Assembly (NCBI GenBank): GCA_025058055.1
Contig: JANXEU010000026.1
Coordinates: 1 to 57,426, forward strand
Direction: 5' to 3'
From: Candidatus Calditenuaceae archaeon
GTDB lineage: Archaea > Thermoproteota > Nitrososphaeria_A > Caldarchaeales > Calditenuaceae
DNA: 57,426 bases
Shown here piece after piece: positions 1,509-7,575 of this stretch. The notes below the pieces were generated by a model that did not search any database, was not told the origin of the DNA, and saw nothing but the letters and a program-made list of their open reading frames with translations. Position 1 is the first letter of the stretch; each line of letters opens with the position of its first letter. Both the position numbers and the translations under genes were made by a program.

Positions 1509-2435
1509 ATGAAACTGATCTCTTTTTCAGTGTCAGAAATAGTCAAGGTGGGTCTTCTGACTGACAGAGGTGTTCTAGATCTGGCTGCATGTTATAAGAT
1601 GTTTTACGATGACGAGGTCCCGGTCTGGCTCTATTCGATGAGGAGTTTCCTCGCCGCTGGTGAAGACGCCTTCGATCTCGCATCGAGGTTGGAGAGAAAA
1701 GCAGCTAGTTATGGGTCTGGAAAACCGCTCTATCATAAGCCCTCAGAGATAACCTACAGAGCTCCGGTTCCCGACGCTAGGAAAATTCTCTGCGTAGCGG
1801 CGAATTACGTATCACATGGACAGGAGATGAACATAAGAATTCCGGATAGGCCGTACTTCTTCGGGAAATACTCGAACAGCTTGACAGGCCACGAGGAGAA
1901 CGTGATCATTCCCAAGACATCGACCAAAGTTGACTACGAGGTCGAACTAGCGGTAATTATCGGTAAGAGGGGGAAATACATCCCCAAGGAGAAGGCCCAT
2001 GAGTACGTCGTGGGCTACACGGTTTTCAACGACGTGAGCTTCAGGGACAAACAGTTCCCGCTAGGATGGCCTCATCAGCTCAACCCGTACGGACAGAACT
2101 GGATACTCGGAAAAAGCCTTGACACGGCAGCACCATGCGGACCCTATCTGGTCACTAAGGACGAAGTCGGTTCACCTTACCCCCTACGGCTCCTCCTTAG
2201 GGTAAACGGTGAAGTGAGACAGGAAGGTTCGACCGACGAAATGTACTACAAAATCGGGGATTTAATAGAATACATCTCTGATGGACTGACATTGGAACCC
2301 GGCGACATAATAGCTACTGGAACGCCTGCAGGCGTCGCGGCAGCGGGCAGACCGTTCCTAAAGGAGAGCGACGTCATGGAGGCGGAGATTGAGAAGATAG
2401 GACTTCTCCGAAACAGGCTTGTCAAAGAGACTTAA
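1509..2435 (+). CDS. Fumarylacetoacetate hydrolase family protein
   Basis: KILCVAANYVSHGQEM...PYFFGKYSNSLTGHEENVIIPKTSTKVDYEVELAVIIGKRGKYI...YVVGYTVFNDVSFRD...GDIIATGTPAGV; TATA-like CTTTATAA about 30 nt upstream. Confidence 0.93.
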   Translation: MKLISFSVSEIVKVGLLTDRGVLDLAACYKMFYDDEVPVWLYSMRSFLAAGEDAFDLASRLERKAASYGSGKPLYHKPSEITYRAPVPDARKILCVAANYVSHGQEMNIRIPDRPYFFGKYSNSLTGHEENVIIPKTSTKVDYEVELAVIIGKRGKYIPKEKAHEYVVGYTVFNDVSFRDKQFPLGWPHQLNPYGQNWILGKSLDTAAPCGPYLVTKDEVGSPYPLRLLLRVNGEVRQEGSTDEMYYKIGDLIEYISDGLTLEPGDIIATGTPAGVAAAGRPFLKESDVMEAEIEKIGLLRNRLVKET

Positions 2436-2594
2436 GTGAATCGCCTGTTGTGGGGGAGTAAGGTCATCTTTTCGGATGTCCGAAGGACGCTGACGACTAG
2501 CCATCGTGAAGTTCGTTTACGGAATTCGACTCGACGTGGCCGATGAACGGGACAGGAGTCGGTAAATAGAAGGAGGAGTGGCGGTTGTGGGTAA

Positions 2595-3407
2595 TTGAGA
2601 GCGTCAATAGTTCTGTCCAGGAGTGACCACTCTTCGATGATGGTGAGAGAATACCTGGTGGAGGTGCTGGGGTTCGAGGCCCTTAGGGGAGGAGAGGTTG
2701 AGGTCCTCGCTAAAGGCGGATTGACGGCGGTTGTCCTGAGAGGGCTGCACCTCTACACCTCTGTAGATGAGCTGACATCGCTTCAGTCGGACCTACTCGT
2801 GGTCGCCTCTACTCACCGCTCGGAGCACGGCGTCAAGGCCCTGACGGTGCACTCAACCGGGAACTGGACCTCCGAGGCGACACACGGAGGCATCCCGAGG
2901 AGGGTCTCAGCGACGCACGCAGGCGCGATGAGGGTGGCCTTCGACGCGCTACTGGAGGAGGCCCAGTCGAACAGAGAGCTCCACGGATGGTGGGTCGGAC
3001 TGGAGGTGACGCATCACGGCCCCTACTCGCCAGTGCCCCTGATCTACGTGGAGTTCGGGGGACCGGAGGACGCCAGGAGGGACCCCGCGGCTGCTGAGGC
3101 CGTCGCCGAGTCGTGCCTTCGGGTACTGAAGTCCTGTGAGCGGTCGAACAAGGGATCGATAGGCGTAGGAGGGGGACACTACGCGCCGACATTCACGCGG
3201 GCTATGAGGGGGCGGCTCTACGACGTCACGCATGTCCTGCCGAAGTACTGCATGCCTGAGGGTCTCGAGCTTTTAAAGGAGGCTGCGGCCAGTGTCCACG
3301 ACGGTTGTAGGTACCTGATTATAGACTGGAAGGGCACGCCCAGCCATCATAGGTCGGTGGTGGCGAGGATCGCAGAGGAGCTCAGGGTGGAGCTCGTCAG
3401 ACTGTGA
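2595..3407 (+). CDS. dtdA: D-aminoacyl-tRNA deacylase (archaeal DtdA type)
   Basis: MRASIVLSRSDHSSMMVREYL...GLEVTHHGPYSPVPLIYVEFGG...GVGGGHYAPTFTRAM...THVLPKYCMPEG...YLIIDWKG; TTG start. Confidence 0.92.
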   Translation: MRASIVLSRSDHSSMMVREYLVEVLGFEALRGGEVEVLAKGGLTAVVLRGLHLYTSVDELTSLQSDLLVVASTHRSEHGVKALTVHSTGNWTSEATHGGIPRRVSATHAGAMRVAFDALLEEAQSNRELHGWWVGLEVTHHGPYSPVPLIYVEFGGPEDARRDPAAAEAVAESCLRVLKSCERSNKGSIGVGGGHYAPTFTRAMRGRLYDVTHVLPKYCMPEGLELLKEAAASVHDGCRYLIIDWKGTPSHHRSVVARIAEELRVELVRL

Positions 3408-3630
3408 GTCGGATGGCCGTAGTTAGTCGGGAACAACAGCGTTAACCACGGGAATCACACAGTTTCCGAACGAGATCATGGCGAGACGGCTGCTGATGCC
3501 GCAGCCGGAGTCGGCTTTCTCTAAATCTTTCCAGACCCAGAAGTCAGTTTGGACTTCTGCTCCTCGGCAACAACCCCAAACGATTTTATACTGAAGCCCG
3601 TAGTTTGAATAAATTGAGTCATGATGTGAC

Positions 3631-4182
3631 ATGCGAACACTTGGGCTTTCCCGGGTTGCACTCGTTGCGATGGTAGTGGTAGCGATAGTGGCTGTGTCCG
3701 GCCTATCGGTGTTCATACTGGCCCCTGGTGCTAGGACTTTAAGGCTCGAGGCTTTTGAGTTCGGCTTCGACGGCCATTTCGGTGGACCCACACTGAGAGT
3801 CAAGGTCGGCGAGACGCTTAGAATAACTCTGGTCAATAGAGGTGGCATAGAGCACGAATTCATGGTGGTTAGAGACGTGAACGAGTTCCTTGAGCAGATC
3901 CAGCTGAAAGTAAGGGAGCTCCAGGCCAAGGGCTTGAAAGAAGAACAAATAAAGACCTCAGAGGAGATCGAAGAGATACACGAAAATTTCGTAGCGGTCA
4001 AGCTCATGGTTGGAGGTAAGGAGAGCATGGAAGTCGAGGTAGACCGCGGAGAAACTGCCCAGTTCGAAGTTACCTTCAGAGCACCGGGGACGTTCTACTA
4101 CGTATGCGCCGAGTTTGAGGCGACGTTTCCGTCGACCCACGCAGACAGAGGCATGTACGGCACGATCATAGTGGAGGCATAA
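3631..4182 (+). CDS. Membrane-anchored cupredoxin-domain protein with long insertion
   Basis: N-terminal hydrophobic helix; cupredoxin strand pattern; IEHEFMVV and TFYYVC...STHADRGMYGTIIVEA copper-ligand-like His/Cys/His/Met. Confidence 0.8.
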   Translation: MRTLGLSRVALVAMVVVAIVAVSGLSVFILAPGARTLRLEAFEFGFDGHFGGPTLRVKVGETLRITLVNRGGIEHEFMVVRDVNEFLEQIQLKVRELQAKGLKEEQIKTSEEIEEIHENFVAVKLMVGGKESMEVEVDRGETAQFEVTFRAPGTFYYVCAEFEATFPSTHADRGMYGTIIVEA

Positions 4183-4308
4183 TACAGCAACGAAGGGATT
4201 TTTATAAATGGACTCAAAGACCGAAGCCCAAGTCTTAAAAGTCGCTCCGATGATGCCTTCTCTTGAGTCAACCAGTTAGATGTCAAGAGGAAAACCACTG
4301 GTTAAGTG

Positions 4309-4599
4309 GTGTGGCCTAAGCCTGCCTTTAGGGTCTCAGAGGTCGGTGAACCGTCAAGCGAGAGATCGATCGATGTCGGAGGAAGCCATGCGCTTGGGCC
4401 TTCACGAGGTCGATGAGGGCGGGGCTTACAACTCCACACATCCAGCCGGAGTACCGTGTTCCCGAGGGAAGGGGCTCCGTCCAGCACCTCCGACGGCTTT
4501 AGGTACGTGCTTATAGCGTGGAGGGGCCGGCCAGACCACCACAGGGCAACCGTGCCTAGAACCTGCAAGGAGCTCGGGTTAATGCTAACATGGCTCTGA
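4309..4599 (+). pseudogene. Frame-broken relic of the dtdA C-terminal half
   Basis: MRAGLTTPHIQPEYRVPEG (compare dtdA MRGRLYDVTHVLPKYCMPEG), then a frame change, then STSDGFRYVLIAWRGRPDHHRATVPRTCKELGLMLTWL* (compare ASVHDGCRYLIIDWKGTPSHHRSVVARIAEELRVELVRL*); VGGSHALGP matches VGGGHYAP. Confidence 0.85.
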
Positions 4600-4665
4600 A
4601 AGGCTGAATCTGTGTTGAGCCGACACTGAAATATACGGGTATAACAGCGTTAAGATAGGAGAATC

Positions 4666-5049
4666 ATGCTGTTGCCGAGTGAGATAGAAGCGAAGTGGCT
4701 GCTCCCCACGCTGAGGGCCCTAGTCGTCAAGAGGTTGGTGACGGAGTACGGACTTACTCAGGAGAGGACCGCATACCTGCTCGGGATAACGCAGGCCTCG
4801 GTCAGCAACTACCTAAGGGAGGTCAGGGGAAAGTGCTGTTACACCAGTCTCAGGTTGCCGGCCTTGGAGCAGCACGCGGATGCGATCGCATCGGTCGCCT
4901 ATGACAGCCAAGACCCCCACAAAGTCGTTAAGGCGATTCAGGAGGCGATAGGCCGGATCAGGCAGGACAGGACGCTCTGCGAGATCCACAAGTACCTCGA
5001 GCCGGAGCTGGACGTAGAGAACTGCGACATCTGCGGCACTTTTCACTGA
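4666..5049 (+). CDS. HTH transcriptional regulator with C-terminal Cys motif (COG2522-like)
   Basis: VKRLVTEYGLTQERTAYLLGITQASVSNYLREVRGKC HTH; C-terminal CEIHKYLEPELDVENCDICGTFH. Confidence 0.78.
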   Translation: MLLPSEIEAKWLLPTLRALVVKRLVTEYGLTQERTAYLLGITQASVSNYLREVRGKCCYTSLRLPALEQHADAIASVAYDSQDPHKVVKAIQEAIGRIRQDRTLCEIHKYLEPELDVENCDICGTFH

Positions 5050-5211
5050 CGACCGGACAGATGCTTCTATAGTTACGCTCAGTTACCCCATGGCCGATCA
5101 TCGGCTCACTGGAGAGTCCTTCATCATCGCGTCACGGAGCCGGCACTTCGTTGAAATAAACATGAAATCGATCGACACAGCTAAAAATGACTGCGGAACC
5201 ACAGGGAAGGG

Positions 5212-5427
5212 ATGAGGGCCGGAGAAGGAACGACCAGAAGGTTCGGGGCGAGGTACGGTGCGAGGCTGAGGAAGAGGCTCGAGGAGCTAGAGAAGACGCA
5301 GTACGCCACCTATCGCTGCGAGCGGTGTGGCAGGGTCGCCGTCAGGAGGGTCGCCATCGGGATATGGGAGTGCGGCAAGTGCGGCAACAGGTTCGCCGGA
5401 GGAGCTTGGGCCCCTAGTCCCACCTGA
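5212..5427 (+). CDS. rpl37ae: 50S ribosomal protein L37Ae
   Basis: TTRRFGARYGARLRKRLEELEKTQYATYRCERCGRVAVRRVAIGIWECGKCGNRFAGGAWAP. Confidence 0.95.
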   Translation: MRAGEGTTRRFGARYGARLRKRLEELEKTQYATYRCERCGRVAVRRVAIGIWECGKCGNRFAGGAWAPSPT

Positions 5428-5430
5428 GCG

Positions 5431-5688
5431 ATGCACCGCTGTAAGCTCACGGTACTGCTCAAGAGCCCGGACGCGTCATTCATCTGTGCCGCCCTCCTTC
5501 CTGAGGCTGGCGTCCTTCCCGGGGGCAGGTCGGTGGCCTCGGTCGAGTGTTCGGACAGCAGCATGAGGCTGATGATCAAGGCCGAGGACACCGTCGCGAT
5601 GAGGGCCGCAGCGAACTCGTTCCTGAGGTGGATCTCCGCGGTAGAGATGTCCCTCGACGAGATCGAGGGGCTCACACCGAGAAGGTGA
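5431..5688 (+). CDS. pcc1: KEOPS complex subunit Pcc1
   Basis: Small CTAG/Pcc1-like protein: VECSDSSMRLMIKAEDTVAMRAAANSFLRWISAVEMSL; follows L37Ae. Confidence 0.8.
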   Translation: MHRCKLTVLLKSPDASFICAALLPEAGVLPGGRSVASVECSDSSMRLMIKAEDTVAMRAAANSFLRWISAVEMSLDEIEGLTPRR

Positions 5689-6969: not shown

Positions 6970-7575
6970 GTGAAGTGGTGGCACGTCCCAGCAGTCGCCG
7001 CTGTCGCAGCTCTGGCTTTGGCCTTGACCCTCGCGTTGTCGGCCAGCGCGTTCATGACGCGACAACAGCCCGCGCCCCAGTCCCAGTACTGGGGGCAGGG
7101 AACAGGCCCGATGAAACCGACGGGTTGGATGGGCCGCATGATGGGTGTCTGTCCGTGCATGGGGTGGATGTGGGGAGCTCCGCAACAACCTCAACCACAG
7201 CAACAGGCACCTACGTCGGAGCCCGACGTGGAGGTCGTGGTCTTCGCGGGTGACTTCGGTTTCGGCAGGAGCAGGGACTCCATCACCTCACCGGGACCTG
7301 AAATCAGAGTGAAGAGGGGATCTCTGGTCAAGCTGACCCTAGTGAACGTCGGAAAAGCGGTCCACGTCCTCACGGTCGTCGGGGTCTTGAGGGGGGACTC
7401 AGGGGCCTCTCCGGTATTCCCCGGTGCACAGGCCGGGACGCCCGCGAACCCACTAACGCCGGGTCAGAGCCTCACGGTCTACTTCGTGGCCGACAGACCT
7501 GGAACATATTACTACGTCTGCAACGTCCCAGGTCACGTGACGGCCGGGATGTGGGGGAGGTTCGTGGTCGAGTGA
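6970..7575 (+). CDS. Blue copper (plastocyanin/sulfocyanin-like) protein with Met/Trp/Gln-rich linker
   Basis: Signal-anchor; GWMGRMMGVCPCMGWMWGAPQQPQPQQQ linker; KAVHVLTVVG and TYYYVCNVPGHVTAGMWGRFVVE type-1 Cu motif; GTG start. Confidence 0.88.
   Translation: MKWWHVPAVAAVAALALALTLALSASAFMTRQQPAPQSQYWGQGTGPMKPTGWMGRMMGVCPCMGWMWGAPQQPQPQQQAPTSEPDVEVVVFAGDFGFGRSRDSITSPGPEIRVKRGSLVKLTLVNVGKAVHVLTVVGVLRGDSGASPVFPGAQAGTPANPLTPGQSLTVYFVADRPGTYYYVCNVPGHVTAGMWGRFVVE

Follow-up and report, generated by a model that had tools for sequence, protein, structure and literature searches.

The window, that is, the whole 57,426-nucleotide stretch of DNA analysed, is contig C2 of a 1.17-Mb, 40-contig, 78%-complete assembly (genome G000) of a hot-spring Candidatus Calditenuaceae archaeon from the Caldarchaeales, the order formerly called Aigarchaeota. 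The named dtdA relatives are Candidatus Calditenuaceae assemblies, the closest named one being isolate SKYB46. The nearest sampled relative, G003, belongs to the same genus, and the order of dtdA and its neighbour was also compared in two further genomes, G001 and G004. Three intact genes lie on the forward strand of the locus. The first is dtdA (2595-3407), which encodes a D-aminoacyl-tRNA deacylase of 270 aa (Pfam PF04414, E=1.7e-47) that is 91% identical to its G003 ortholog. It is followed by a cupredoxin gene (3631-4182) and by a ParB-like helix-turn-helix (HTH) gene (4666-5049; Pfam HTH_ParB, E=2.3e-5).

Behind the cupredoxin gene, also on the forward strand, a frameshifted relic of dtdA (4311-4599) was detected, which corresponds to codons ~170-270 and has kept the position of the stop codon. 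When intact DtdA was compared by tblastn with its own genome, it matched itself and positions 4315-4587 (E=1.2e-8), the latter with an internal TGA. A frameshift-aware local alignment paired 4320-4596 with DtdA residues 173-270 (46/98 identical) at a score of 159, compared with a mean of 31 and a maximum of 48 for 60 dinucleotide shuffles. This alignment required several changes of frame and one deletion of roughly 14 nt, no frame was open across the match, and the alignment at the DNA level placed the left edge at 4311. The read-through relic matched the Pfam tRNA_deacylase model only weakly (E=0.006, short of the model's cut-off), which is what a decayed third of a domain would be expected to give. 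A preliminary description had presented this region as a decayed copy of the C-terminal half of dtdA, matching it piece by piece and lacking any single open frame. The tblastn and frameshift-aware alignments, the several frameshifts and the TGA bear this out, and the proposed start at 4309 is close to the edge at 4311; what was called a half is, however, the last third of the protein (residues ~170-270 out of 270).

By its homology, its broken frame and the lack of codon constraint described below, the 4311-4599 segment is, as judged from sequence, a real dtdA remnant. The relic is collinear with residues ~170-270 of the archaeal and plant D-aminoacyl-tRNA deacylases (DtdA/DTD2, PF04414) and keeps VGGGHYAP-like and WKGxPxHHR-like motifs, together with the stop position, but it has neither an open frame, nor the 5′ two thirds, nor a start, and is not a functional DTD2. 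For annotation, the locus is also a caution, in that the 78-aa ORF at 4280-4516 and the other small ORFs there are spurious. Since dtdA itself is intact, no large question of translation proofreading is raised.

A second, complementary relic was found behind the intact dtdA gene. Positions 3428-3495 (forward strand) correspond to the upstream region and the first ~13 codons of the HTH gene, and aligned to 4636-4703 with 71% identity and a score of 26 (maximum of 200 shuffles, 18); the start codon of this relic, at 3457-3459, has changed from ATG to ACA. Neither this relic nor the reach of the repeat into the next gene figured in the preliminary description. Both relics belong to one collinear 394-bp direct repeat across the dtdA-HTH junction, with a local DNA alignment score of 91.5. 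The left copy (3102-3495, forward strand) consists of the intact 3′ third of dtdA, a diverged intergenic stretch and the decayed HTH start, and the right copy (4311-4704, forward strand) of the decayed 3′ third of dtdA, the native intergenic stretch and the intact HTH start. The two collinear copies thus share sequence of more than one gene (the dtdA 3′ end, the spacer and the HTH 5′ end), as in a segmental duplication. As in other partial-duplication pseudogenes, there is a direct repeat with complementary loss, so that what remains in each copy is just the half needed to complete a gene; the difference is that the copies here flank an unrelated cupredoxin segment rather than abutting.

We then considered how far the duplication had extended. 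Beyond the inner edges of the repeat, the continuation of the HTH gene scored 8 and that of dtdA, in the upstream 133 bp, scored 7, whereas DNA simulated with the same degree of decay as the relic scored about 30 on average, with a 5th percentile of 15. The inner edges are therefore sharp, and the duplication is, on this comparison, a partial one that broke off close to codon 170 of dtdA and codon 13 of the HTH gene, barring a later replacement of the flanks. If the preliminary description is taken to mean a whole second dtdA, it does not hold, as the homology stops at codon ~170 and an equally diverged relic further upstream would be detectable. The same edges bear on the idea that the whole dtdA-HTH pair was tandemly duplicated, and that the cupredoxin segment later took the place of the middle (most of the first HTH gene and the 5′ two thirds of the second dtdA), which had been lost by deletion. 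Duplications in tandem occur often, the gene order dtdA-HTH-dtdA-HTH agrees with one, and the end product would be the same. This course of events requires extra steps, however, and no HTH sequence past codon ~13 or dtdA sequence before codon ~170 was found in the ~130 bp beside the cupredoxin gene, although sequence no more decayed than the relic would be detectable there, so that we regard this course as unlikely.

The order of the genes in relatives was then analyzed. In G003, G001 and G004 the HTH gene comes straight after dtdA, at a distance of 66-73 bp and with nothing between. In the window, the dtdA relic ends 66 bp before the HTH gene, which falls within the spacing of the relatives, so that, seen from the HTH gene, the relic occupies the place of the ancestral dtdA. 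A second dtdA match was present in only 1 of 61 genomes, that of the window, and in 0 of the 60 relatives. Furthermore, when almost the entire genome was scanned (1,192 ORFs, which include overlaps between stretches; all but the final few kb of several long contigs), no other off-frame gene fragment was found within 5 kb of its parent.

Between the two copies of the repeat lies an insert of 815 bp (3496-4310), delimited by the points where the homology ends; it has no homology to dtdA or to the HTH gene and is absent from G003. The intact cupredoxin gene, of 183 aa, was the sole gene recognised in it, with about 130 bp on each side. The product matched Pfam Cu-oxidase_3 (E=1.8e-4, above the cut-off) and Copper-bind (E=0.0016), and candidate type-1 copper ligands (H/C/H/M) were present when the sequence was read directly. 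No integrase, recombinase or other element gene was recognised in the insert, and searches of viral contigs and plasmids brought up no relative of the cupredoxin. When the insert DNA was compared with 20 relatives, a convincing match was obtained only in the cupredoxin coding part (65% to G001), and none of the cupredoxin neighbourhoods in relatives had neighbour genes in common with the window locus. Among the relatives compared, the position of the cupredoxin gene was common to G009 and G011 only, and neither a donor molecule nor a second genome carrying the insert was found among the relatives, viral contigs and plasmids. In addition, a second, distantly related cupredoxin with multicopper-oxidase/sulfocyanin-like Pfam matches was observed at 6970-7575, 2.8 kb downstream of that in the insert, and the cupredoxin match at 111592-112140 of contig C4 of G009 (L134) contains two in-frame stops (TGA and TAA) and is possibly another pseudogene.

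The mode of decay of the dtdA relic was analyzed by codon position. The relic differed from the intact dtdA at 45/28/42% of first, second and third positions, respectively, whereas the functional orthologs differed from it at 12/10/37% (G003) and 42/32/51% (G001). Unlike the orthologs, the relic shows no third-position excess, which argues for neutral decay rather than for a divergent paralog that was once functional. This pattern also bears on the suspicion of a contig misassembly joining the loci of two strains, which the 40-contig, 78%-complete state of the assembly might invite. A neutrally decayed, frameshifted relic is unlike a working copy from another strain, and at both joints the sequences are only ~62-70% alike and have no long words in common that could mislead an assembler; hence, a misassembly is very improbable.

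The age of the duplication was approached in several ways. The relic was identical to the intact dtdA at 171 of 276 sites and to the G003 dtdA at 173 of 276, with 21 sites common to the relic and the intact gene only, and 23 to the relic and G003 only. In a tree the relic fell inside the G000/G003 clade, apart from G001 with 99% support, the order within the clade having 53%. Being equidistant from its own dtdA and from that of G003, the relic would date the duplication to about the time of the G000/G003 species split. However, the branch of the relic (0.56 substitutions per site) is at least as long as the neutral expectation per lineage since the split from G003, so that the event may predate the split and G003 may have reverted; site patterns polarised with G001 gave, on this pre-split age, 11 vs 8 and 6. 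The G003 arrangement could accordingly be ancestral or reverted, since recombination between the repeats would restore exactly the order seen in G003.

In the explanation that we consider probable, a segment of ~815 bp with the cupredoxin gene would have entered the dtdA-HTH junction around the time of separation from the nearest sampled relative, with a 394-bp stretch (the last ~100 dtdA codons, the 66-bp spacer and the first ~13 HTH codons) left as a direct repeat on each side. The left copy would complete dtdA and the right copy would start the HTH gene, so that both genes would remain whole, while the redundant HTH start on the left and the redundant dtdA end on the right, lacking the rest of their genes, would never have been functional and would have decayed neutrally. 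Such partial copies (an HTH gene that lacks its 3′ part and a dtdA that lacks its 5′ part) are useless from birth, and therefore which half decays was forced, as seen. The repeat, its edges, the ancestral adjacency and the neutral pattern are observed, and from them we infer that insertion and duplication were one event, the simplest account being a single insertion by which the 394-bp target was duplicated. The route was most likely either of two that would give the same product, namely homologous single-crossover (Campbell-type) integration of a circular molecule that bore the cupredoxin gene and a fragment of the dtdA-HTH junction, or duplicative break repair with captured DNA. The repeat, the neutral pattern and the ancestral adjacency likewise support the proposal of the preliminary description that a duplication was followed by decay, with the cupredoxin gene inserted between the copies. 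The locus is a partial-duplication scar of an ordinary kind, cleanly preserved and well resolved, in which the two relics complement each other, and it offers a readable record of how a gene can be added between conserved archaeal neighbours with neither of them broken, each keeping one working copy of the shared end.

The identity to G003 was not uniform along the window. It was ~80% up to about 2110, ~97% from 2110 to ~3127, ~80% in the final third of dtdA and, further on, about 62-98%. The 97% tract covers the 3′ end of the FAA hydrolase gene and the first two thirds of dtdA, and the 4-fold JC value against G003 was 0.09 in the 5′ part of dtdA and 0.54-1.05 in several neighbours.

The drop from 97 to 80% near the left edge of the repeat would favour a different reading, in which a small mobile or exchanged cupredoxin segment entered dtdA at codon ~170 with a replacement 3′ end of its own; the host gene would then have persisted as a chimera, and its displaced original end would have become the relic. 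A precedent for this exists, as phage 21 and e14 integrate into the 3′ end of a protein gene, icd, and restore it. As at icd, the gene end is present on both sides of the insert and the distal copy is dead; in contrast, no integrase or element gene is present here, the insert is only 815 bp, the repeat runs into the next gene, and the way in which the copies are related is at odds with a replaced 3′ end. A native end that had been displaced would be expected to lie nearer to G003 than the incoming one, and it does not (173 vs 171 of 276), so that the dead distal copy does not stand out as native by its distance to G003. Moreover, the 97% tract starts mid FAA hydrolase, which makes it a recombination tract in its own right, and the background level is 80%: the 3′ third of the intact dtdA has a 4-fold JC of 0.58 against the G003 ortholog, compared with 0.54 for the FAA hydrolase. 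As the searches of viral contigs and plasmids gave no relative of the cupredoxin either, we consider this reading improbable. The preliminary description had also offered an ancestral copy plus a replacement, which fails on the same background divergence and distances, and the intact dtdA retains its conserved upstream context. The relic as the ancestral native 3′ end was, separately, rejected on site patterns.

As it begins mid FAA hydrolase, the 2110-3127 tract most plausibly reflects a recent exchange between the lineages of G000 and G003 and has no connection with the relic. The right edge of the tract and the left edge of the repeat are no more than about 30 bp apart, for which we offer no account except chance. 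A further patch of ~93% identity to G003, at 4860-5640, covers the 3′ end of the HTH gene, L37Ae and Pcc1, and with these two patches the locus resembles a patchwork of exchange tracts.
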